NCBI RefSeq assembly: GCF_021513215.1 | Contig: NZ_CP090975.1 | Coordinates: 117,501 to 181,500 of the forward strand | Source of the DNA: Suttonella sp. R2A3 | GTDB lineage: Bacteria; Pseudomonadota; Gammaproteobacteria; Cardiobacteriales; Cardiobacteriaceae | Direction of reading: 5' to 3' | Length of the DNA stretch: 64,000 nt | Shown here: positions 38,316 to 50,121 of the stretch, piece by piece | Numbering within the stretch: position 1 is the stretch's first letter | How the letters are laid out: each line of letters starts with the position of its first letter | Translations under genes and position numbers: made by a program | Notes under the pieces: generated by a model | Seen by the model: the letters and a program-made list of their open reading frames with translations, nothing else | What the model was told of the DNA's origin: nothing | The model's database searches: none

Positions 38316-39260
38316 ATGAGCAAGATTATTACTGTAACACCGAATCCAGCGCTTGATTTAACCATGCATGCCAAGGGTTGGCAGCGTGGGGTTGTCAACC
38401 GTGGGCAATCGATGGATGTAACTCCGGGTGGTAAAGGGTTGACGGTGGCGATTAACCTGGCGATGGTTGGTGTGCCGTGTACGGTTACTGGCTGGATGGG
38501 GCAAAATAACGATGGCCACTTTTGCCGTGAATTCAATAAAAATGGCTTGGAAGATCAGTTTGTTCGTGTGCCGGGTGATGTACGACGTAATATCAAAATC
38601 GTCGATGAAAGTAATGGCGAAACCACCGACATTAATATGCCGGGGCACAGCGTGAGTGAAGCAGCGCGCACCTTGCTGATTGAACTCATTGACGCGATGG
38701 TCGATGAAGAAACGATTTTAGTCTATGGCGGCTCACTACCACCGGATTTAGAGAAAAGCTATTACGCAGATATGGTCAAACGCTATCATGACCGCACGCG
38801 TGCGGTGGTGGTTGATACCAGTGATGAAGCTTTAGATGAGCTGATGAAAGCCGATATTTTGCCGCAAGTGATCAAACCCAATATTCACGAGTTGGAAAAT
38901 CTAGTCGGGCGCACGTTGGAAAGCGATGCAGACATTATTGCCGAAGCTCGTCGCTTTATTGATAAAGGCGTTGAGCTCGCGGTTGTATCGTTGGGCTCGC
39001 GTGGTGCGTGGTTTGTGCGCAAAGACGAAGCGCTGCATGCGCAACCGCCTAAAGTAAAGGTTGCGAGCACTGTAGGCGCAGGGGACGCGATGGTTGCGGG
39101 CATCGTACGTGGGATAATGTTCGGACGTACGCTCGAAGAAATCGCCCGTACCTCAACCTCATACAGTGTGGCGAATATCAAAAAAGTCGGCATTTCCTTA
39201 CCGTCAATTGCCGAGATTGAAGAAATCAAGGCTAAAGTTGTGATCACCCATCAAGCATGA
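38316..39260 (+). CDS. PfkB family sugar kinase (1-phosphofructokinase-like)
   Basis: The 314-residue kinase matches the FruK/LacC/PfkB branch of the ribokinase family: TVTPNPALDLTM at the start, VTPGGKGLTVAINLA, IKPNIHELENLVG, and the ATP-site signature STVGAGDAMVAGIV with the catalytic Asp. Substrate could be fructose-1-phosphate, fructose-6-phosphate or tagatose-6-phosphate; no PTS genes are adjacent. I chose ATG 38316 with AGGGGA before it. Its last 84 bases recur, diverged, at 42262-42345. Confidence 0.88.
   Translation: MSKIITVTPNPALDLTMHAKGWQRGVVNRGQSMDVTPGGKGLTVAINLAMVGVPCTVTGWMGQNNDGHFCREFNKNGLEDQFVRVPGDVRRNIKIVDESNGETTDINMPGHSVSEAARTLLIELIDAMVDEETILVYGGSLPPDLEKSYYADMVKRYHDRTRAVVVDTSDEALDELMKADILPQVIKPNIHELENLVGRTLESDADIIAEARRFIDKGVELAVVSLGSRGAWFVRKDEALHAQPPKVKVASTVGAGDAMVAGIVRGIMFGRTLEEIARTSTSYSVANIKKVGISLPSIAEIEEIKAKVVITHQA
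39177..39260 (+). repeat. 3' end of the pfkB-family gene, left copy of a diverged direct repeat
   Basis: The last 84 bases of the kinase gene, including its stop codon, match 42262-42345 at 72 of 84 positions by my hand alignment. Most differences are synonymous, so the second copy was a coding sequence from a related allele or paralog. Confidence 0.85.
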
Positions 39261-39352: not shown

Positions 39353-39708
39353 AGCGCCTGCAGACGCCAGCCTTGTTCGGTGGCGAGCGAACGATTAGTC
39401 AGTTCGAGGTTCTTAAGAAATAAGTCATCGTGTGACACGACAAGTCACGTACCCTGGTAACTGCGCAACATGCTCTCCAATGCTTCTGTGGAAGGTAGAT
39501 CAAGGTGGTTGTTCGGTTCGTCAAACAACAGCAGTTGCGGTGGCGACTCGTCATAGAGTATGCAGGCAAGGGCGCCTTTTAAACGTTCGCCGCCGCTTAA
39601 CAGAACACTTGGTGTGGTCACAATTTGTGCGTTAAGACCAAGTTGCGCCAGGCGCATGTACAAATTCGCTTCGCTGGCTTGACCATAGGCGAACACCGCC
39701 GTCACGAC
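39353..39708 (-). pseudogene. Remnant of an ABC-F ATPase gene
   Basis: The minus strand encodes the C-terminal part of an ABC-F protein: LSGGERLKGALACILY (signature), LLLFDEPNNHLDLP (Walker B and D-loop), then ESMLRSYQGT. A TGA stop follows, then in the same frame LVVSHDDLFLKNLELTNR (H-switch). The first half of the protein, including Walker A of this domain, is missing; the frame starts abruptly near 39708. It is thus truncated at the 5' end and interrupted by a stop. Intact ABC-F proteins act on ribosomes. It lies between the kinase gene and the autotransporter and looks like debris. Confidence 0.82.
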
Positions 39709-39812: not shown

Positions 39813-39835
39813 TTAAACACATGGAAGTGGAGCCG

Positions 39836-42172
39836 ATGAGTAAAATTTTATACCTTTCTTCGATAGCTGATTGTCATAAATGTTATTTATTACGATACAG
39901 AAGGCCCTTATTGGCTTCAGCGATTGCTGTGGCCTGTTTGGGTTTTAGCGCCACAACCTTAGCTGATACTATCATTAATTCAGACCAGACTGGTAATATT
40001 GCCTATGGTGTGCTAGTAAACACCGGAAACGCTGCCGCCACCGGCGGTGTGGTAGACATACAAAGCGGTGGGATTATAAAAAGAGCTTACGGTGGGTTTT
40101 CTTTTTACGGTTATGCCAGTGATAACAGTGTCACTGTCTCCGGTGGTACGGTAAATGAAATTGCTTACGGTGGGTATTCTCAAGACAATGATACCGTGAA
40201 AAACAGTGCCACTGTCTCTGGTGGTATGGTACAAAATCATGTTTATGGCGGGTATTCTGATGGCAATGGTAATGCCACCGATAACAGTGTCACTGTCTCC
40301 GGTGGTACGGTAAAAAAAAGTGCTTACGGTGGGTATTCTCTACGCGGTGGAGCCGTGAAAAACAGTGTCACTGTCTCTGGTGGTACGGTAGACGCTAGTA
40401 TTTTAGGCGCGTATGCCCGTGGCGATGTCACCGATAATACGGTCACCGTCTCTAGTGGTACGGTAGGTGGTAATGTTGTCGGTGGGGATTCTTTTCACGA
40501 ATTCGCCAACAATAACAGCGTCATTGTCTCCGGTGGTGCGGTAGAAGGTTTTGTTTGGGGTGGGTATTCTATTGCTGGTTCTGCCAATAACAGCGTCACT
40601 ATCTCTGGTGGTGAGGTAGGTGGAGGGCATCTTGGTGATAAGGTTTACGGCGGGTATTCTGTTAATGGCAATGCCAGTAATAACAGCGTTACTATCTCCG
40701 GTGGTGCGGTAGATGTTAAGTTTGTTTATGGTGGGGTATCTCATGATGGAGATAACACCGACAATACCATCACCATTAAAAAAGGCAGCACGGGCAATCC
40801 AACTTTTGGTGTAAATACTGTTCTCTATGGTGGGTATAATTCGAATATCTACAGCACAAACGAAGTTACAAAGGGCAATACGCTGAATCTACACACCACC
40901 GGTATTGAGGTAAAAAACATTGCTAACTTTGAAAACCTGCATTTTTATGTACAAAAAGACACAGCAAATGGTGCCACGTTTTTAACCCTGAGTGATACGT
41001 CAGATACCGATATCACAGGCAGCAAAGTCGGCATAGGCATTGAAGGCAGTGATACCGTGCTGAAGAAAGGCGATAAAGTCGTGCTTATCCATAAAAGCGA
41101 TGCCACAGGTACATTATTAACCGATGCGGATACGCCCAATACCGTTACTGCCATGCAGGGTATTGCTGTGGGATATGATTTCACCATTACAAAACCAGAC
41201 GATCAAACCTTGATTGCTACCTTATCTAAAGCACCTACCGGAGTTAATCCACAAGTCAAATCTTTGCTTGAAGCCCGTTTAGCTGCGGTTGAAACGATTA
41301 ATCGCGGGGGTGATCTTGCCAACGGTAAAGGCATGAGTAACCTGATCGAAATCACACAAGACGATGGAGTGAAGCTTTTTGCTGTTGTAGGTGGCGATAA
41401 GACCCGCACTAATACAGGCTCGCATATTGATGTCAACAGTGCCCATCTCTTACTCGGTGCCGGCACAGGCATTGCCAACAGCAGTGGCACCCTTATGATC
41501 AGTGGCTTTGCTGAATACGGTAAAGGCAACTACGACAGCTATAACGACTTTGCTAATCGTCCCAACGTTCATGCCAGTGGCGACACTCAATATTATGGGC
41601 TGGGCATGTTGGCAAAACAGCAATTCGACAATGATTGGTTTATTGACGCAGGTCTGCGGGTTGGTAAAAGCAAACTGGATTATTTTAGTGCCGATCTGGT
41701 TGATGCCTCAGGAACCCCCACGACCTTTGATGATAAATCCACCTACATTAGTGCAAATATTGGTGTGGGCAAAACCTTTGCCATGGATAAGAAAAACAGA
41801 CTAACCCCTTATGTGAATTTGTTTTACACGAATTATGGCAGTCTGAATAAAAAGATTGCCGGCTCGACCTTTAGTTTTGCAAATATCACTTCACTACGCA
41901 GTCAATTGGGGGCACGTTATCAATATGCCATTAGTGAAAAGAGCCAGGTTTATGCCAATGCTGCCTGGGAACACGAATTCCGAGGCACTGCCAAAGGGAA
42001 GGTTTTGGGTTTTGCTATGCCGGAGCCGACCTTAAAAGGCAGCAGTGGATTAATTGGCGCAGGATTTAATTTACAACCCAATGAGAACTTATCTATTAAT
42101 TTAGGTGCCCAAGGCAGTTTTGGTAACCGCCGGGGCGTTTCTGCGGTTGGTAAATTTGTGTATTCGTTATAA
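39836..42172 (+). CDS. Type Va autotransporter with YGGYS repeats
   Basis: The 778-residue protein has a long signal region (charged YRRP near 27, then a hydrophobic stretch ending TTLA at about 49). The passenger consists of imperfect repeats of NSVTVSGGTV and YGGYS at intervals of about 25-33 residues (about 75-320), then a linker region. A C-terminal autotransporter beta-barrel of about 270 residues follows, beginning near SNLIEITQDDGVKLFAV and ending GKFVYSL. The passenger should form a beta-helix on the surface, perhaps as an adhesin. I chose ATG 39836 for its GGAG; 39821 is possible. The island position suggests acquisition. Confidence 0.88.
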   Translation: MSKILYLSSIADCHKCYLLRYRRPLLASAIAVACLGFSATTLADTIINSDQTGNIAYGVLVNTGNAAATGGVVDIQSGGIIKRAYGGFSFYGYASDNSVTVSGGTVNEIAYGGYSQDNDTVKNSATVSGGMVQNHVYGGYSDGNGNATDNSVTVSGGTVKKSAYGGYSLRGGAVKNSVTVSGGTVDASILGAYARGDVTDNTVTVSSGTVGGNVVGGDSFHEFANNNSVIVSGGAVEGFVWGGYSIAGSANNSVTISGGEVGGGHLGDKVYGGYSVNGNASNNSVTISGGAVDVKFVYGGVSHDGDNTDNTITIKKGSTGNPTFGVNTVLYGGYNSNIYSTNEVTKGNTLNLHTTGIEVKNIANFENLHFYVQKDTANGATFLTLSDTSDTDITGSKVGIGIEGSDTVLKKGDKVVLIHKSDATGTLLTDADTPNTVTAMQGIAVGYDFTITKPDDQTLIATLSKAPTGVNPQVKSLLEARLAAVETINRGGDLANGKGMSNLIEITQDDGVKLFAVVGGDKTRTNTGSHIDVNSAHLLLGAGTGIANSSGTLMISGFAEYGKGNYDSYNDFANRPNVHASGDTQYYGLGMLAKQQFDNDWFIDAGLRVGKSKLDYFSADLVDASGTPTTFDDKSTYISANIGVGKTFAMDKKNRLTPYVNLFYTNYGSLNKKIAGSTFSFANITSLRSQLGARYQYAISEKSQVYANAAWEHEFRGTAKGKVLGFAMPEPTLKGSSGLIGAGFNLQPNENLSINLGAQGSFGNRRGVSAVGKFVYSL
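40090..40800 (+). repeat. Degenerate coding repeats of the autotransporter passenger
   Basis: At least eight copies of a unit related to AACAGTGTCACTGTCTC and GGTGGTACGGTA, followed by text coding YGGYS, occur at about 75-100-base spacing. A ninth copy is decayed. Several neighbouring units are near identical at DNA level, so copy number could change by recombination. Confidence 0.8.
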
Positions 42173-42230: not shown

Positions 42231-42261
42231 ATCTATAACACCCTTAGATAATATAAGATTT

Positions 42262-42345
42262 ATCGAAAAAGAGGGTATCTCTCTGCCGTCAATTGCCGAG
42301 ATCGAAGAGATCAAGGCTAAAGTTGTGATCACCCATCAAGGCTGA
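42262..42345 (+). pseudogene. Duplicate 3' end of the pfkB-family gene (right copy)
   Basis: In frame this stretch reads IEKEGISLPSIAEIEEIKAK then VVITHQG and a stop, matching the end of the kinase 3 kb to the left. Homology begins abruptly at 42262 and ends with the stop codon at 42345. It has no start and is not expressed as a gene. It marks the right edge of the accessory insert. Confidence 0.85.
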
Positions 42346-42375: not shown

Positions 42376-42762
42376 TTAGCGTGGGGGAATACACCCGCCA
42401 ACGCGAACTTCATCGCTGTAGGCTTTGCCTAGCGCGGCATAATACCCATTGCTGTAAAACCCGGTTTGTCCATCGCTATAGATGATCGGGTTAGTGCTTG
42501 CCTGGCGTTTGAGTACGTACTCACGCTGCTGGTGAACGACGATGAGCTGCTGCGCGTTACTATCCTGGTAGCGGGTGCGTAAGGTTTCACCACGTGGACA
42601 TTGCCACTGGCTCCACTTGCTCGCACTGATTGGTAAATTGACGCTGGGTAGTTGGGCAATCGCTGCTTGATCGCTAACCTGCGCGATGCGTGAAGGCTGA
42701 GGTGCGCTCGAGCAGGCAGCAAGCAAGGCGGCAGTGAGTAATGATAGCGAAATTTTATACAT
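42376..42762 (-). CDS. MliC-like lipoprotein (putative lysozyme inhibitor)
   Basis: The 128-residue lipoprotein has signal MYKISLSLLTAALLAAC with lipobox LAAC. Its mature part resembles MliC/PliC: WQCPRGETLRTRYQDS, VVHQQREYVLKRQ, YSDGQTGFYSNG and a final GGC. MliC inhibits C-type lysozyme at the outer membrane. I chose ATG 42762; the frame continues to 42780 but the signal peptide begins here. The position after three lytic transglycosylases suggests inhibition of such enzymes, or protection from host lysozyme. Confidence 0.75.
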   Translation of the reverse strand: MYKISLSLLTAALLAACSSAPQPSRIAQVSDQAAIAQLPSVNLPISASKWSQWQCPRGETLRTRYQDSNAQQLIVVHQQREYVLKRQASTNPIIYSDGQTGFYSNGYYAALGKAYSDEVRVGGCIPPR

Positions 42763-42773
42763 ATCGGTCTCCG

Positions 42774-44651
42774 TTACCACGCCTGAACACGTGCGCTGCT
42801 GTAAGTGGTATAAGGGATCGCTAAGCGGTATTGATAGACTTTTTCGTATTCAAGCACGCGCTTAACATAATCACGGGTTTCGACAAAGGGAATTTGTGCG
42901 ATCCATTCATCAAGTGGCAAACCTGGGTGCCCACTGAGCCAACGGCGTGCACGATGCGGTCCGGCGTTATACGCCGCTGCCGCATAAGCAAGGTGACCAA
43001 ATTCATTCAGACGATCGCTTAAGTATTGTGTGCCAATGGTCAGATTGGTGTTCACATCCATCAGTGATTGGCTACCACTATAAGAGATACCATAGCGTCT
43101 TGCAGTATCGCGTGCTGTTGCCGGCATCACTTGCATCAGACCTAGCGCACCTGCAGGAGACTTAATAGTTGGTTGGAAAATACTTTCTTTACGAATAATC
43201 GCGTAGATCGTTGCTGGCGATAGGTTATGTTGGGTCGCTAACGCGCGAATTTTCGTTTCGTATTCCAGCGGAAAACGAGTGCTTAGCGCGTCCCAATATT
43301 TAAGGTCAGCTAAAGTCACAATCGCCTGAATGTGCCAGTTAAGGTCGCTGGCAACCATTGCAGCTTGTTGGCGCTCTTGTTCGTTTAAGCCTTTAAGCAG
43401 GCCTTGCCATTCGTTTAGCGCGCGATTATCTAAACCCATGCGCGCAAAGCTCAGCATACGCCAGGCTTCTGGTTTCGCCATCACGCGTGCACGGACGGTA
43501 GGATTGGCCGCAATCGAGCGGTCGTTAAAGGCATAAGGTTGACCGAGCTTTTCCGCAGCGAGAAAACCAAAAAAATCGCGTTGGGTGGCGGCTTTTTGAT
43601 AATGCGCGCGGCTTTGTGCGTCCTGGCCGAGGCGTTCAGAGGCTTTCCCTAACCAGTACTGTACTTCTGCTTTATTCGCCAGTGTTGGGCTAAGATTGTT
43701 GTTAAAGGTTTGTTTAATGCTCGACCAGTCGTGTTGACGCAGGAAATACGCGAGTAAATCATAGAAGGTATTATCATCATGCGAGCCTGATGGAATGCTT
43801 TGCCACGCCTTTATTGCACGCGGGTCGTCAATTTGCGCTAAGGCTCGAGTCAGGCGGTTAAACAGCTGCGCCTCAAGCTCTGCATCGCCAACCCTACTTT
43901 GAATATGGGTAAACGCCATGTTTGCCGCGCTAGCGGTGGATTTAAAGGCATCACGGCTCAAAATATAGGCGAGTGCGCTTTGTTGCCAAAATGGATTGTT
44001 AATCGCTAACGCTGCATTTGCACTATCACTGTTCGCCGCACGCATCCATTGCTGGGCCGCAGTACCTTCTGAACCACTTAGCTCATTAGCAAGATAGGTT
44101 GCCAGGGCATTGTTATTTGCGCGTGTAGCTAGGAAAAAACGTTCTTTTATTTTTTCGTTATTCAGTGCGCCGCTGCTTTTTGCCCGAGCAAATAACGGGT
44201 CACAAGCAGCGTCAATGCTTTTAGCTGATAACCATAAACTATCGAGACCATTGTAGGCTTGTTGCGTGTTGCCATTCGCAAGCTGGGCTAGGCGGTATTC
44301 ACACTCAATCGATTCATCAGCGAGATGCGGATGCCACGCGTTTATAATCGCATTATAGTTGCCTTGCTTGAGCCATAGCGGGAAAGCGTGTTCCGCGAGC
44401 CAGCCTGAATAGGGTGCATCCGGATGCTCTTTCAAAAAGGTGGATACTGCTAAATCATCGGTAAGAAAGCCTTGGTCAACTTGTTTGCGATACGCGCGGT
44501 ATTCTAGGTATGGATAGAGTGGGTGGCCGCGAAAATGATCGTATTGTGCGAGCGCTGCACCTTGTTCAATGGCTTGCTCAGCGCTAAGCAAGCGTTCCTG
44601 TGCTTGCAGTGGTAAGGCACTTGATAAAAGAAAGAAAAGCATCGCTTTCAT
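42774..44651 (-). CDS. Soluble lytic murein transglycosylase, Slt70-like
   Basis: The 625-residue exported protein has a signal peptide (residues 1-17). A long alpha-helical superhelix (about 30-460) follows, then an SLT catalytic domain. The active glutamate is in IIRKESIFQP (near residue 490); LGLMQVMPATARDTARRYG and AAYNAGPHRARRWL follow. It cleaves peptidoglycan strands to anhydro-muropeptides. The start overlaps the stop of the upstream small transglycosylase gene by four bases (ATGA). Confidence 0.92.
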   Translation of the reverse strand: MKAMLFFLLSSALPLQAQERLLSAEQAIEQGAALAQYDHFRGHPLYPYLEYRAYRKQVDQGFLTDDLAVSTFLKEHPDAPYSGWLAEHAFPLWLKQGNYNAIINAWHPHLADESIECEYRLAQLANGNTQQAYNGLDSLWLSAKSIDAACDPLFARAKSSGALNNEKIKERFFLATRANNNALATYLANELSGSEGTAAQQWMRAANSDSANAALAINNPFWQQSALAYILSRDAFKSTASAANMAFTHIQSRVGDAELEAQLFNRLTRALAQIDDPRAIKAWQSIPSGSHDDNTFYDLLAYFLRQHDWSSIKQTFNNNLSPTLANKAEVQYWLGKASERLGQDAQSRAHYQKAATQRDFFGFLAAEKLGQPYAFNDRSIAANPTVRARVMAKPEAWRMLSFARMGLDNRALNEWQGLLKGLNEQERQQAAMVASDLNWHIQAIVTLADLKYWDALSTRFPLEYETKIRALATQHNLSPATIYAIIRKESIFQPTIKSPAGALGLMQVMPATARDTARRYGISYSGSQSLMDVNTNLTIGTQYLSDRLNEFGHLAYAAAAYNAGPHRARRWLSGHPGLPLDEWIAQIPFVETRDYVKRVLEYEKVYQYRLAIPYTTYSSARVQAW

Positions 44652-45325
44652 GGTTCATCCTGAATATGGTTTTGCCAGTCAGTTGAAAATCGCTGCTGGT
44701 AGGTTTGCACAGTTTTGACGTAATGTTTGGTTTCGGGGTATGGCGGTATCGTATTTTGATACGCCTTGACGGCTCCGATGCCTGCATTATAAGCGGCTAA
44801 AGTAAGTTGTACATCGTCATTGTAGTGTTTTAACAAGACCTTAATTTGCTGGATGCCACCGTTGATATTTTCCTGTGGATCATAGGGATCTTCAATACCC
44901 AACGCGTCAACGGTGGCTGGCATTAATTGCATCAGCCCCATAGCGCCTTTTTCAGAGACCGCATCAGCATGATAGCTCGATTCTACGGTGATAATGGCAT
45001 GGAGCAGCGCGTTATCAATGCCGTGTTCAGCGCTTAAGCTATTAACCAACGCTTTATATTGGCTCATCCGCACTTTAAATGCGCCACTTGGTTCGACCAC
45101 TTGGATGGTTCTTTGTTGCTGCTGTTGTTCTTCACAGACTTGTTTGAAGATGTGTTTTTTACCCACCATGATGATGACGGCATGGCAGCTGCGTTTGGTC
45201 GGTAGCTTCTCTCCATAATCACAGGGGATCAAATGGGTTTTGCCATCTTTAACATAGCTGCCACAGCTTTCTCCGGCAAATACGGGTAAGGCAATTAAGG
45301 CGATAAATAGGGTGAGTATTCTCAT
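44648..45325 (-). CDS. Lytic transglycosylase, cysteine-bearing N-terminus
   Basis: The 225-residue exported protein has a signal peptide (to about residue 17, FAG). A short cysteine-containing domain (SCGSYV, LIPCDYG, RSCHAV, QVCEE) and a glutamine run follow, then an SLT domain. Catalytic Glu is in ITVESSYHADAVS; MGLMQLMPATVDALGI and LAAYNAGIGAVKAYQ follow. It overlaps the upstream and downstream transglycosylase genes by four bases on each side, so the three are translated in a coupled way. Confidence 0.9.
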   Translation of the reverse strand: MRILTLFIALIALPVFAGESCGSYVKDGKTHLIPCDYGEKLPTKRSCHAVIIMVGKKHIFKQVCEEQQQQQRTIQVVEPSGAFKVRMSQYKALVNSLSAEHGIDNALLHAIITVESSYHADAVSEKGAMGLMQLMPATVDALGIEDPYDPQENINGGIQQIKVLLKHYNDDVQLTLAAYNAGIGAVKAYQNTIPPYPETKHYVKTVQTYQQRFSTDWQNHIQDEP

Positions 45326-46997
45326 AAACCGACCTGCGCTGGATTAGCGCGATATTTGCCGTAGTATTGCAGTACCTTGGGCACATACGCTTTGGTCTCG
45401 ATAAATGGCGGGATTTTATACCCGTATTTGCGCACATTACCTTCACCAGCGTTATAGCCGGCAATCGCCAGCTCAAGATTACCGTTGAATTCTTTGAGTA
45501 ACCATTTTAAATACGTCGTTCCGCCGCGGATATTTTGCCCGCTATGGAAGGGGTCTGTAACATTAAAACGCGCTGCAGTGGCGGGCATTAACTGCATCAA
45601 ACCTTGCGCACCAGCGTGTGAAATCGCGCGTTGTTTATAAGCAGATTCTGCAGAAATGACCGCATGAACTAAGAAGGGATCAACGCCCACATCTGCAGCA
45701 ATTTGATTGATTTGTGCGCTAAAGCCTTGTTGTCTGGCTAAAAACGCGCCGCTGACTTTGATATTAAGGTCATCATGGACTGCTTGTGCAATCCGTCTGG
45801 CTTCGACAATCAGCGCCGGTGGACAGTCTTTTGTTGGCTCAAGATGCAATACACGGCCGTTTTCACTAGTGATTGTCCCGCCACAGCTACCAGCAGTGGC
45901 TAAATAATCCTGATCGTATGCCGCTACAGCCGCGTATTGTGTGCCGAATTGAATATCGCCCCCCGTGGAGCCTGGGCTGTAATTGTATGAATAATCCGCA
46001 CACTCAAATTCACGTTCTTGCCCACGAAAGCTCACGCTACCCGCGCCACTGCAGGTTAACCGTGGGCCAATAGTTTCTTGAATCGGACGAGCGGGGGCTA
46101 CGCTGTTTTGCGCTTGTTGGCGAAGCTGCTCGGTAACGCCGGCAAAAGAGCGTGAGAAAAACTGACAATGGTGAAAATTAGCGCGATCTGCGGCATTTAC
46201 ATAGGTTGGTAGGTTTTCATGGTCAAAACATTTGTAGATATCTGCTGGTGGTGAGTCTGTTGCTTCAACCGATGTGTTATTTGGTGCGCTATTGAGGCTG
46301 ACAGGCTGACTGGTTGAAGAGCTCTCAGCAAACGGTTGACGATCAGCTTGTGTTCTATCGCCAATGCCGCCCATATCCGTGCACTGCGCATGTGGGGCTT
46401 CGCTGGCTTCAATCAGGCTTTGCGTACCACCGTCTTGGCAGAGATAGATGCGCGTATTGCGCTTTGTGATAGCTGTCGGTTGTTCAGTTTCTGGGGGGGC
46501 TTTTGGCTGGGCTCGGCCATAAGCGCTGCAACACTCCCTCCCTTAGCACCCATTACCACACAATCCTCATTAGGCAGCTGTTTGCGTTCCACAATGCGCT
46601 GCTGACCATTCACTTCACAGGCGTAAATTTTTTGTACGTCGGCTTTATATAACGGTGTGGTTGATGGGTGGGTTGTCTGCGCAGGGTGATCGAAAGCCAG
46701 TGCCTGGGTCATATCGGCATAGTGCAGCTGAATCTTGGTAGCTGATGGCACTGGGGGGCTTGGTGGCACACTGGGGGAGGTTGGTTTTTGCGCAGATGTA
46801 GTGGTAGCGTGTGACGGCTTTTTTAGCGCATTAGCGCTATAAGGGCGACAGTTTTGATCAGTAGGGCGATTGGCGGTGTTGACCACATTATCAACACCGC
46901 TCGGGTCACTACACAGCCATAAACCGGCTGTTACATCATCAGCTAGAGCAAGCCTTGTGGTGATTAGCAAAGCCCAGCATAAGACAGTACGCACCAT
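45322..46997 (-). pseudogene. Large lytic transglycosylase with cysteine-pair repeats, frameshifted
   Basis: Two adjacent frames make one gene. The first (46997 to 46413) carries a signal peptide and the units LWLCSDPSGV and IYACEVNGQQ. The second (to 45322) carries IYKCFDHENL and a C-terminal SLT domain with ISAESAYKQRAISHAG and MQLMPATAARFNV. Adding one C to the seven-C run (plus-strand G run 46493-46499) joins them. It also reveals a further unit, IYLCQDGGTQSL, for a 558-residue protein. The units resemble DUF4124-like modules. I chose ATG 46997 for its clean signal peptide. Confidence 0.82.
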
Positions 46998-47008
46998 GAT
47001 TGGGGCGG

Positions 47009-47860
47009 TTATGACCAATCAAAAACATCAAATGTTTCGGCTTTAGACCAAGCAGAAAGCCCTTTATGCCATAGCAAATCGTGGCGGCGGAGGGTGCCAT
47101 CATCAATCAGCGCTTGTACCTCAACCGCACTGAGTGGACCTTGTTGTTGGCCACGAAAAATGCGATAAAACAATTTTTCAGGGGTGGTTTTTTGCGTAAT
47201 GACCATATGGGTTGATGCTGGCGCTGCTTCCTCACTTGCCGCATCATGATCGCTTTGTTCACGCTCATCGACCACCGCCTGGATATCTAATGACAGATTC
47301 TCCAGCGTTAACCCTTTGGGGCGAAAATAAATCGCTAAGGTATCGCGTAAAAATTGGGCAAAACGGGTGTTTTTGGCGTGTATATCCTGGCAAGGAATAC
47401 GTTGGTTACGTAAAATATGCTCAATCGCCTTGCTGAGCCAGCGTTGTAGCGATTGCTGATCACGAAATTCAGGGTCAGCCAGACAGTTTGAGGCAAATTG
47501 GTCGCAGTGACTAATCAATAGCGTGCCTTCGCCGGAAAGGGCTAGGCGCTCATTGAAGTGATCCTGATAATCGAGCTGCCACGATCCTTGATACTGAGCA
47601 CCTTCACGGATAAATAAGACCTTGGCTTTATCTTGCGCTAAGTCTTTTAATGCGTGTTCCCCAGCAGGGTAGAATTTGGCGTTATCAGCACCTTGGTCAA
47701 TCGTCGCACATTGTTTTTTGGGGACGATGAGCGTCGGTTCATAGCGCTTTAAGTTTATGGTTTGGCAAACCGCCAAATCCTCTTCGCCAAGAAAGCTTGA
47801 GAGTGGACCGTTGGTCTTTTCTCCGCGTAAGGCATTTAATAAATTCTTCCATGTAAACAT
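47009..47860 (-). CDS. SPFH/YdjI-like protein with C-terminal GYF domain
   Basis: The 283-residue protein has no signal peptide. Residues about 40-200 (TLIVPKKQCATIDQGAD, FYPAGEHALKDL, GEGTLLISHCDQF, WLSKAIEHIL) resemble the SPFH-like part of YdjI-type proteins; this is a pattern match by eye. The last 50 residues, FYRIFRGQQQGPLSAVEVQ and LLWHKGLSAWSKAE, are a GYF_2 domain, usually a protein-interaction module. It starts two bases after the telA stop. It may link TelA/XpaC to the envelope enzymes; that is inference. Confidence 0.7.
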   Translation of the reverse strand: MFTWKNLLNALRGEKTNGPLSSFLGEEDLAVCQTINLKRYEPTLIVPKKQCATIDQGADNAKFYPAGEHALKDLAQDKAKVLFIREGAQYQGSWQLDYQDHFNERLALSGEGTLLISHCDQFASNCLADPEFRDQQSLQRWLSKAIEHILRNQRIPCQDIHAKNTRFAQFLRDTLAIYFRPKGLTLENLSLDIQAVVDEREQSDHDAASEEAAPASTHMVITQKTTPEKLFYRIFRGQQQGPLSAVEVQALIDDGTLRRHDLLWHKGLSAWSKAETFDVFDWS

Positions 47861-47862
47861 AC

Positions 47863-48936
47863 TTACCTCGAAACTTGGCTGGCTTTAGTCAAACTGTCTT
47901 TTAATGCACGTTCGGCGGCATCCAATCTACCTACCGCTTCCTGGCGCTGATTGCGCGCTTGATCGTGTAAAGAAATACTTTCTTCTATGGTGTTAATCAA
48001 ATTTTGATTAGCGCGCTCAATGCTTTCAATATCAAACACACCACGTTCAATCTGTTCACGACTGCTGCGGTTAGCTTGCTGGAGATTGGTGGCATTTTTC
48101 TCAAGTAATTCGTTGGTCAAATCACTGCTGGCTTTAAGCGCATCAGCGGCATCTTGTGCGTGGTGAATCGCAATCGCTTGTGCGAGCTGCTGTCGCCAGA
48201 GTGGGACGGTGTTAATCAGGGTGGTGTTGATTTTATTCACCAAGCCTTTGTCGTTTTCTTGTAACAGGCGAATGCTTGGCAAGCCCTGCATCGCCACTTG
48301 CCGGGTAAGACGCAGGTCGTGTAGGCGGCGATCGAGTTCATCACGGCGTTCTTGATGGTCGCGTAAACGTTGTGCGGCGGCGATATCATCGCTGGCTTCA
48401 GCTTCTTCACGTAAACGCGGCAGCACAACCGTATCGCTTTTTTCAAGTGCGCTTTCGCCAGCGGCAATGTAGTGACAAAGCTCACGATAATAGTCTAAAT
48501 TCGCGTCATAAAGCGCATCTAAGGACTTTACATCCACTAATAGGGTTTGCTTTTGTTCTTCAAGATGGTTGCTGATTTGATCGATTTGATCGCTGACGGT
48601 ATCAAAACGGCTGAGAAAACGTTCAAAAGAAGCCTGTGTTTTGCCAAATAAACGGGCAAAAAAGCCCGGTTTTTTATTTAGGCCGGTTTCTTCACCTTGA
48701 AACCCGCGTAATACGCCGATCATTTTATTCAGCAATTCACCAGTCGCGCCACTGTCTTTGCTTTTTACATCAAGCAGCATTTGATCAGAAATTTCGGTGA
48801 GCTGCTTTTGTGCGTCAAAACCAAATTCAAGAATACTCTGTGTGTTGTGCAGATCAATGGTGTTTGCGATCTCACTGACCCGTGTTTGATCGAGCGTGGT
48901 CGTTTCAACTGGCTCTAGCGTGGTTTGTTCATTCAT
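47863..48936 (-). CDS. TelA family (toxic anion resistance) protein
   Basis: The 357-residue soluble protein is largely alpha-helical with extended coiled-coil character. It shows family text KKPGFFARLFGKTQASFERF, LDALYDANLDYYRELCHYI and DLRLTRQVAMQGLPSIRLLQ, with a C-terminal INTTLINTVPLWRQQLAQAI. TelA/KlaA/YaaN proteins are linked to tellurite and other envelope stresses; their biochemistry is unclear. It overlaps the xpaC-like gene by eight bases, the standard XpaC-TelA pairing. Confidence 0.9.
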   Translation of the reverse strand: MNEQTTLEPVETTTLDQTRVSEIANTIDLHNTQSILEFGFDAQKQLTEISDQMLLDVKSKDSGATGELLNKMIGVLRGFQGEETGLNKKPGFFARLFGKTQASFERFLSRFDTVSDQIDQISNHLEEQKQTLLVDVKSLDALYDANLDYYRELCHYIAAGESALEKSDTVVLPRLREEAEASDDIAAAQRLRDHQERRDELDRRLHDLRLTRQVAMQGLPSIRLLQENDKGLVNKINTTLINTVPLWRQQLAQAIAIHHAQDAADALKASSDLTNELLEKNATNLQQANRSSREQIERGVFDIESIERANQNLINTIEESISLHDQARNQRQEAVGRLDAAERALKDSLTKASQVSR

Positions 48937-49795
48937 GGTGTTTTGACTCTTTCAGTTGGTCTTGTAGTACTTGCATATGAATGTCTAAGCGGCGCTGTTG
49001 CGCGTCACTAAGGACATCATGTTTCTGATTGACTTCGTTAAGTATTGTATCTAATAACGCAGAGAATTGTTGTCGCGATTGCAGTCTTTTTTCTGAAGCG
49101 AGCAGGGTGAACTGCTCGCCGATCGTTGCTGCTTCGCGCAAATGGATCACCAGCAGCGTACGGACTTTGCGAATTTTTTCAGCACTGGGGGTGATTTCAG
49201 TGAGTAACTGCTGGCCACGTCGGGCAATTTGTTTTAAACGCATCGCTAAATAGATGCCGTTTTCGTCATCACGCAAATGTTCACCAATGCGTTGCATGCG
49301 GCGTAAATAATCTTGTGCGTTACTGAGCATCTCGCGCTGGGTTGGGGTGAGGTGATCAAGGGTTTCAGGCTCAGGCGGAGGCGCGATGCCTTCAGTGGGT
49401 TCTTGCCAGGCACCGATGATATAATTGAGGTAGTAACCAACCGCAGCCAGAGCCGCGCTAAACACACCAATCAGTGGGCTACGACGAGTGATAATCACGA
49501 CCAAGCAAAACACACCGAGCGCAACAAAGCCCATCGCCAACTGGCGCTGATCGTTATCAGCCACTTCACGGTTGTTTTTGATTAAATTATCGCGGCATTG
49601 TAGGAAATAATTACGCGTTAACACCGCACCATAGCTGATACAACCAATTACCGCGAGTAAGGCGATACTTTTTATAAACTGCCCACGCAGTAACGAAAAA
49701 GGCACAGCTAACCACAAAGGCGCTTGAAACAAAAACAAACTGCTGCCACGAAGGCTCAAATACTGTAATTTTAGATTACGAAGAAAACGTTTCAT
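48929..49795 (-). CDS. XpaC-like membrane protein
   Basis: The 288-residue protein has four hydrophobic segments in the N-terminal 130 residues. A soluble helical C-terminal part follows (YLRRMQRIGEHLRDDENG, LPKQ-like helical repeats to the end). It fits the XpaC family (5-bromo-4-chloroindolyl phosphate hydrolysis protein), whose genes usually precede telA. I chose ATG 49795, which starts KRFLRNLKLQYL; 49813 is possible. It leads the minus-strand seven-gene set. Confidence 0.8.
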   Translation of the reverse strand: MKRFLRNLKLQYLSLRGSSLFLFQAPLWLAVPFSLLRGQFIKSIALLAVIGCISYGAVLTRNYFLQCRDNLIKNNREVADNDQRQLAMGFVALGVFCLVVIITRRSPLIGVFSAALAAVGYYLNYIIGAWQEPTEGIAPPPEPETLDHLTPTQREMLSNAQDYLRRMQRIGEHLRDDENGIYLAMRLKQIARRGQQLLTEITPSAEKIRKVRTLLVIHLREAATIGEQFTLLASEKRLQSRQQFSALLDTILNEVNQKHDVLSDAQQRRLDIHMQVLQDQLKESKHHE

Positions 49796-50121
49796 ATCAA
49801 TTAAATATGGCAATGCATGAGGGAATGAAAATCACGGCCGCCAATAATAACCAACCCAATGAACGTAAAACAGGATTCATAAACTATCCAAGCAAAAACA
49901 CCATTCTAACATACGCCATTTGACGTTTATGTTTATCGTTGAATGGAGATTATGGCATAATGCGCCACGCTTGTAATCGAACAGATCTGTTTGATTGGTG
50001 CGAGTAGTTGCTTGATGGCTATTATCTTAAATAAATCCAATATATCACTAAAATCAGCTCGCCGACTTGCAAGGAAGGGGCGAAAACTATATAGTACGTA
50101 TTTAGTTCGATTTAGTGCATT
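49796..50121. other. Divergent intergenic region between the xpaC-like and suf units
   Basis: About 325 bases with no open frame that I trust. It must hold promoters for both directions. It contains the perfect palindrome AACAGATCTGTT at 49980-49991 and, near the right end, the suf promoter. Confidence 0.6.
50067..50095 (+). promoter_or_regulatory. suf operon promoter with an overlapping palindrome
   Basis: TTGCAA at 50067-50072 and TATAGT at 50090-50095 with 17-base spacing. The -10 lies within the palindrome ACTATATAGT (50086-50095), a plausible site for the Rrf2 regulator encoded next. Confidence 0.55.

Follow-up and report, generated by a model that had tools for sequence, protein, structure and literature searches.

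In this study, we show that a run of minus-strand genes from Suttonella sp. R2A3 (closed genome of 1.99 Mb), located within the 64,000-nucleotide stretch of DNA analysed here (contig positions 117,501 to 181,500) and referred to as the window, is a genuine conserved operon, judged from its gene order and its overlapping or nearly touching genes. It is made up of a module A, encoding XpaC, TelA and an SPFH/GYF protein together with a small protein, and a module B, encoding three SLT lytic transglycosylases and an MliC lipoprotein. We regard as most useful the finding of the small membrane protein, which is linked to xpaC-telA across Proteobacteria. We put the chances about even that the two modules together form an envelope-stress operon, the individual steps of which would be those proposed below.

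Gene content and conserved order

The features of the operon are listed in Table 1. The xpaC product belongs to PF10112 (32.3 bits, cut-off 29.8), and its gene lies immediately 5' of, and on a common strand with, the gene for TelA (PF05816, 350.5 bits). The next product carries a GYF_2 domain (38.7 bits), the SLT domains of the three transglycosylases score 102, 89 and 91 bits, and the lipoprotein matches PF09864 (28.5 bits, cut-off 22). The preliminary description had placed all the genes it named on the minus strand, which the gene calls confirmed, and the junctions are as it had given them, with an 8-base overlap between xpaC and telA, a 2-base gap between telA and the GYF gene, and ATGA overlaps among the transglycosylase genes. 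Its gene families and their order also hold; however, its count of seven genes had missed an eighth gene of 27 codons and the splitting of the first transglycosylase gene. Promoter and terminator scans gave nothing above chance.

Table 1. Positions of the operon's features in the window
Feature	Position	Strand	Remarks
Small membrane protein, 27 aa (MNPVLRSLGWLLLAAVIFIPSCIAIFN)	49797..49880	-	Directly 5' of xpaC; new family
XpaC family (PF10112), 288 aa	48929..49795	-	N-terminal membrane helices; ATG start (MKRFL)
TelA (PF05816), 357 aa	47863..48936	-	Model with long helices 104-181, 185-297 and 304-356; no solved relative
SPFH/GYF protein, 283 aa	47009..47860	-	Shortened SPFH (Band 7) domain and C-terminal GYF_2 domain
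First SLT lytic transglycosylase, N-terminal part	46413..46997	-	Signal peptide, cysteine-pair repeats; ended by frame change
C7 run	46493..46499	-	Within the stretch of the frame change
First SLT lytic transglycosylase, C-terminal part	45322..46374	-	Catalytic SLT domain; ORF of 350 aa, no signal peptide of its own
Second SLT lytic transglycosylase, 225 aa	44648..45325	-	Signal peptide
Slt70-type lytic transglycosylase, 625 aa	42774..44651	-	SLT and SLT_L domains
MliC-type lysozyme-inhibitor lipoprotein, 128 aa	42376..42762	-	Lipobox LAAC

TelA is encoded by 8 of the 12 genomes of the family. A search for the gene order among relatives, which the preliminary description had proposed on the understanding that an arrangement seen in one genome only would speak against it, recovered XpaC-TelA-SPFH/GYF-LT-LT-Slt-MliC in all of these eight genomes, which represent five genera, with the exception of a single gene in G005, where the middle transglycosylase is missing from the otherwise identical order. 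In G001, two additional small ORFs separate slt from mliC. Comparing the flanking ORFs across the family turned up a single good ortholog pair, besides a weak similarity and a partial match; since the flanks are scarcely common to the relatives, the unit has outlasted its surroundings. Two genomes have retained only part of the operon: G008 has kept SPFH/GYF-LT-LT-Slt-MliC and lacks XpaC and TelA, and G009 has kept LT-LT-Slt-MliC alone. Module B hence does not depend on module A, and the fact that G008 still has the SPFH/GYF gene, XpaC and TelA being absent, argues for loss. A species tree was considered for establishing the direction of gain or loss and was given up, as the deep forks of the Slt tree could not be resolved. 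Two incomplete genomes of the family (72 and 78% complete) gave no match.

Module A is widespread in Gammaproteobacteria. With the family's cut-off, TelA was found in 28 of 276 sampled gammaproteobacterial genomes and in 59 of 299 sampled genomes of the phylum. Sixty-one loci from outside the family, chosen by TelA similarity, contain XpaC-TelA, in many cases with an SPFH/GYF gene and a gene for a zinc-ribbon-like protein next in line, and no homologue of the window's transglycosylases was found in them within up to 10 kb on each side. Such loci in Methylococcales, Competibacteraceae and other groups share with the window the identical first genes in the same order, the small protein included; however, they have no SLT homologues nearby, their SPFH domain is of full length and followed by a proline-rich tail, and their fourth gene often encodes the zinc-ribbon-like protein, which is absent from the window's operon. 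Both the TelA module and a transglycosylase-Slt pair also occur in sister family f3 (G013), where they lie apart from each other. Judged from these sequence comparisons, the operon is a family-level joining of an old membrane module with a periplasmic wall module.

Two other arrangements of these gene families were encountered. The gene order differs in f4, another family of the same taxonomic order (L127, L129 and L130): telA is followed there by a gene whose XpaC-like product has about 370-430 aa. The gene before telA in L127 encodes a protein of 129 aa with a single membrane span at its N-terminus, and the three loci were found to contain no small ORF belonging to the new family. In the jumbo phage Phosso of Sinorhizobium (L196), a gene for a flotillin-like SPFH protein, one for XpaC (81 bits) and telA stand in a row, and this trio is an independent association of the same three families.

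The small membrane protein upstream of xpaC

The 27-codon ORF, which ends one base before xpaC, encodes a product with a charged N-terminus and a single membrane span. A homologous ORF occupies the same position in the other TelA-bearing members of the family and in G013, the version in G004 being more divergent and starting with GTG. Versions of 26-45 residues, for example MLEFMRKLAGFGLLTISLVYVAVRMI and MPDFLRKFIGLLLIFAAVGVASCQALVAS, were present in nearly all loci scanned, and similar ORFs precede xpaC in alphaproteobacterial loci. Counting both profiles, 96 of the 99 testable xpaC loci of Gamma- and Alphaproteobacteria, that is, those with enough upstream sequence, are preceded by a homologue. 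A profile built from 18 gammaproteobacterial seeds was searched against 44,648 six-frame peptides from 1.66 Mb of sequence; the top 89 matches all lie before xpaC, and the first off-target match has an E value of 1.3. The seeds were drawn from the same loci, so that scans of whole genomes are the more independent test. Among the 276 gammaproteobacterial genomes, 18 of 21 matches are located just upstream of telA, the other three being weak and inside long ORFs, and among the 299 genomes of the phylum this is the case for 17 of 21 matches, the other four being weak. By way of comparison, a hydrophobic small ORF of any kind stands just upstream of about 3.5% of 716 other genes, a figure obtained with a different and stricter positional rule, which recovers the small ORF in only 30 of 54 xpaC genes. 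No signal above noise was obtained with the profile in G008 and G009, which lack XpaC and TelA, and no small ORF stands just before xpaC at the Bacillus subtilis and Listeria loci. The 27-residue protein and its relatives have no match in NCBIfam and none above cut-off in Pfam. We also considered whether the protein is a lipoprotein, and this was rejected: some relatives have a lipobox-like VASC, many have no cysteine at all, and the conserved part is the membrane span.

The small ORF is a coding sequence linked to xpaC-telA. In its gammaproteobacterial core, 23 disjoint pairs gave 180 synonymous changes at 343 sites as opposed to 49 non-synonymous changes at 899 sites (pN/pS 0.10; p about 1e-57 if the changes are treated as independent); the alphaproteobacterial set, which is small and more divergent, gave a pN/pS of 0.35. 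It could be argued that the ORF is a mere leader, which couples translation to xpaC and the peptide of which has no function, as it ends so close to the xpaC start in the window and overlaps it in relatives. We regard this as improbable, given the strong selection at the protein level and the conservation of the charged N-terminus, a glycine and the membrane span; in addition, the ORF in other clades has 40-45 codons and lies some tens of bases away from xpaC. On the basis of its position and hydrophobicity, the small protein is likely to be a missing component of the XpaC/TelA system.

The membrane and wall modules compared with known systems

The SPFH domain of the GYF protein falls below the Pfam cut-off of 24 (17.8 bits), with its nearest relative in G005 reaching 25.1 bits. 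In its AlphaFold model, which has a mean pLDDT of 76.5, the protein matches prohibitin, flotillin, stomatin and HflK/C (best E value 1.3e-6, with partial TM-scores), and on the strength of this model the protein is assigned an SPFH fold. The SPFH domain is complete in relatives from outside the family, scoring 336 bits in a Methylomonas protein, whereas the window's protein is shortened and has lost their PPPLP tail. Most SPFH/GYF proteins outside the family (L025, L128 and others) end in PPPLP-type tails, which are the kind of sequence bound by GYF domains, and this suggests that these proteins may associate with themselves. TelA is modelled with very long helices at moderate confidence (pTM 0.50), and neither sequence nor fold searches found a solved relative. 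A PspA/ESCRT-III fold was considered for TelA and rejected, as the fold matches were those of generic long helices with none at E ≤ 0.001, and Pfam identified no PspA domain in any protein of the unit.

One of the closest known parallels to module A is PspA-YdjG-YdjH-YdjI of B. subtilis, in which the gene for an SPFH protein likewise accompanies those for membrane proteins and for a helical protein of the cytoplasm. There, the SPFH protein YdjI together with YdjG/H brings PspA to the membrane, and loss of YdjG/H mislocalizes the wall-synthesis machinery (PMC8581546). The SPFH gene of the window also adjoins genes for membrane-integral partners, with hydrophobic segments in XpaC and the small protein; however, TelA is not PspA, XpaC is not YdjG/H, and the GYF domain and the small protein are additional here. 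The XpaC-TelA pair itself is found in the same order in Bacillota (lmo1966-telA in Listeria, xpaC-yaaN in B. subtilis and xpaC-telA1 in Lactococcus), where, as reported, it is regulated by envelope stress and confers nisin tolerance (PMC8865564; PMC3139573). In Listeria, telA and the xpaC homologue lmo1966 are members of the LiaRS regulon and were identified as genes of nisin resistance (PMC8865564), and in Lactococcus, xpaC and telA1 are upregulated 10- and 3.4-fold, respectively, in a CesSR-related response (PMC3139573); a tie of XpaC/TelA to nisin and envelope stress is also reported in PMC12791056. The Bacillota loci examined differ from the window in that they have no SPFH/GYF gene among the annotated neighbours, no small membrane ORF just before xpaC and no attached transglycosylase genes, and their XpaC proteins have about 205-219 aa as compared with 288 aa in the window.

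In module B, all three transglycosylases have the catalytic glutamate within an ES motif (ESAY, ESSY and ESIF, read from the translations), and the SLT enzymes of all family members have AGYNAG or AAYNAG. The export signal is clear on the 225-aa and 625-aa enzymes and lies on a separate upstream ORF in the case of the first enzyme, the cysteine-pair repeats of which match no Pfam family. This first transglycosylase is intact in six relatives, as one ORF of 504-663 aa, and is divided in the window into two ORFs in different frames. The frame changes in or next to the C7 run, in the stretch where both frames are open; no other C or G run of at least 7 occurs in the window, and the whole genome has about 8. 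The split may be a sequencing error, a mutation or the result of slippage. We considered a conserved phase-variation tract; the C7 run is not shared with relatives, and phase variation is hence not claimed. In G011, both the first transglycosylase gene and the GYF gene also look broken (frame breaks at L073 7200-8100), which may be due to draft errors or to decay. The Slt70-like protein aligns over nearly its full length with solved Slt structures (E value 1.6e-80), and both it and the MliC domain resemble known family 1 lytic transglycosylases and MliC inhibitors; what differs is that three SLT genes are stably linked with mliC in one operon. The linkage of mliC to the transglycosylases holds in 10 of 10 genomes that have the latter, even where telA is lost. 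MliC is known to give lysozyme tolerance (PMC2267010), and MliC of E. coli is a weak inhibitor of lytic transglycosylases in vitro (PMC10139938).

Downstream of the operon, the last 85 bases of a fruK-like gene occur twice (39176-39260 and 42261-42345, 86% identical), flanking an autotransporter gene (39821-42172), and the second copy stops just past the mliC stop codon. From the sequence, it looks as if the autotransporter block was inserted at the end of fruK by recombination. The same block contains a short minus-strand ORF (39445-39705), which resembles an ABC-F type ATPase in the region of the signature and Walker B motifs and is probably a gene fragment, and degenerate tandem repeats of roughly 75-160 bases in the autotransporter passenger domain (40031-40713).

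Proposed mechanism and alternative explanations

According to the two-module model, module A would act at the inner membrane, where the 27-residue protein, as a subunit of the XpaC receptor, would form a membrane receptor together with XpaC, and the SPFH/GYF protein would serve as a membrane scaffold. TelA, a long helical and cytoplasmic protein, would be gathered there and, once cationic peptides have caused damage, would protect or repair the membrane, so that module A would work like PspA with YdjG/H and YdjI in B. subtilis, with TelA being no relative of PspA. Module B would act in the periplasm, where the transglycosylases would trim peptidoglycan that is damaged or unlinked, and the MliC lipoprotein would block host lysozyme and may also damp the cell's own transglycosylases. 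The two modules are not proposed to touch; they would be co-transcribed and induced by stress, because a single insult, be it lysozyme or cationic peptides, affects the membrane as well as the wall. What counts against this model is that module B persists without TelA, so that the functional link may be weak. Further points against it are that the TelA model, of moderate confidence, has no PspA-like fold, that the SPFH protein is shortened and tailless, and that one transglycosylase is frame-split in the window and another is missing in G005.

An alternative is that the modules are two independent housekeeping units, neighbours since the family ancestor, which share a promoter and have no function in common beyond envelope upkeep. 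We consider this a possible explanation, albeit a less probable one than the two-module model: it fits the survival of module B in G008 and G009, the occurrence of module A elsewhere with no homologous transglycosylases nearby and the separation of the two in f3; however, the order is kept across five genera amid changed surroundings, with genes overlapping or nearly touching, and this goes beyond what one would expect drift to preserve. The preliminary description had suggested a system that senses stress in the cell interior through TelA and GYF and remodels peptidoglycan outside, with a lipoprotein to restrain or protect. Read as a single machine, TelA and the GYF protein would register damage from within the cell and exert direct control over the transglycosylases, the lipoprotein acting as a brake. 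A conserved operon, the parts of which point to membrane and wall stress, stands; the integrated machine is not supported, as XpaC and TelA are dispensable for the transglycosylase module and no homologous transglycosylases are found near TelA outside the family. The conserved order, the constant company of MliC and the transglycosylases and the weak inhibition by MliC would suit such a machine (PMC10139938), and the last two of these lend some backing to the idea of a restraining lipoprotein. Yet there is no apparent trans-envelope link from the cytoplasmic TelA and SPFH proteins to the periplasmic enzymes, although XpaC and the small protein cross the inner membrane; a direct signal from TelA to the transglycosylases is unsupported, and we hold the single machine to be unlikely. 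Least probable is a determinant of resistance to tellurite or other toxic anions, as the TelA annotation would have it. TelA family membership, with the plasmid gene klaB as a relative, and the greater tellurite sensitivity of L. cremoris with lower telABC operon levels (PMC13109727) speak for it; however, the locus is chromosomal with wall enzymes alongside, and loss of Listeria TelA has a larger effect on nisin than on tellurite tolerance (4-fold as compared with 2-fold, a result cited in PMC12791056).

A bolder extension of the two-module model, which we put forward as speculation and think rather doubtful, is that the small protein, XpaC, TelA and the SPFH protein make up an undescribed membrane-guarding complex of Proteobacteria, a functional counterpart of PspA systems built on an unrelated helical protein, and that in this family the complex has been wired to peptidoglycan cleavage, with an MliC protein dedicated to restraining the transglycosylases of the cell itself.

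TelA and XpaC occur widely and are tied to nisin and tellurite tolerance; a protein of about 27-45 residues encoded nearly always before xpaC in Proteobacteria provides a simple genetic handle on this stress system. Whether lysozyme inhibitors regulate an organism's own wall enzymes is a question that was raised in 2008 (PMC2267010) and has been only weakly answered for E. coli (PMC10139938), and the stable pairing of mliC with transglycosylase genes in this family makes it directly testable.
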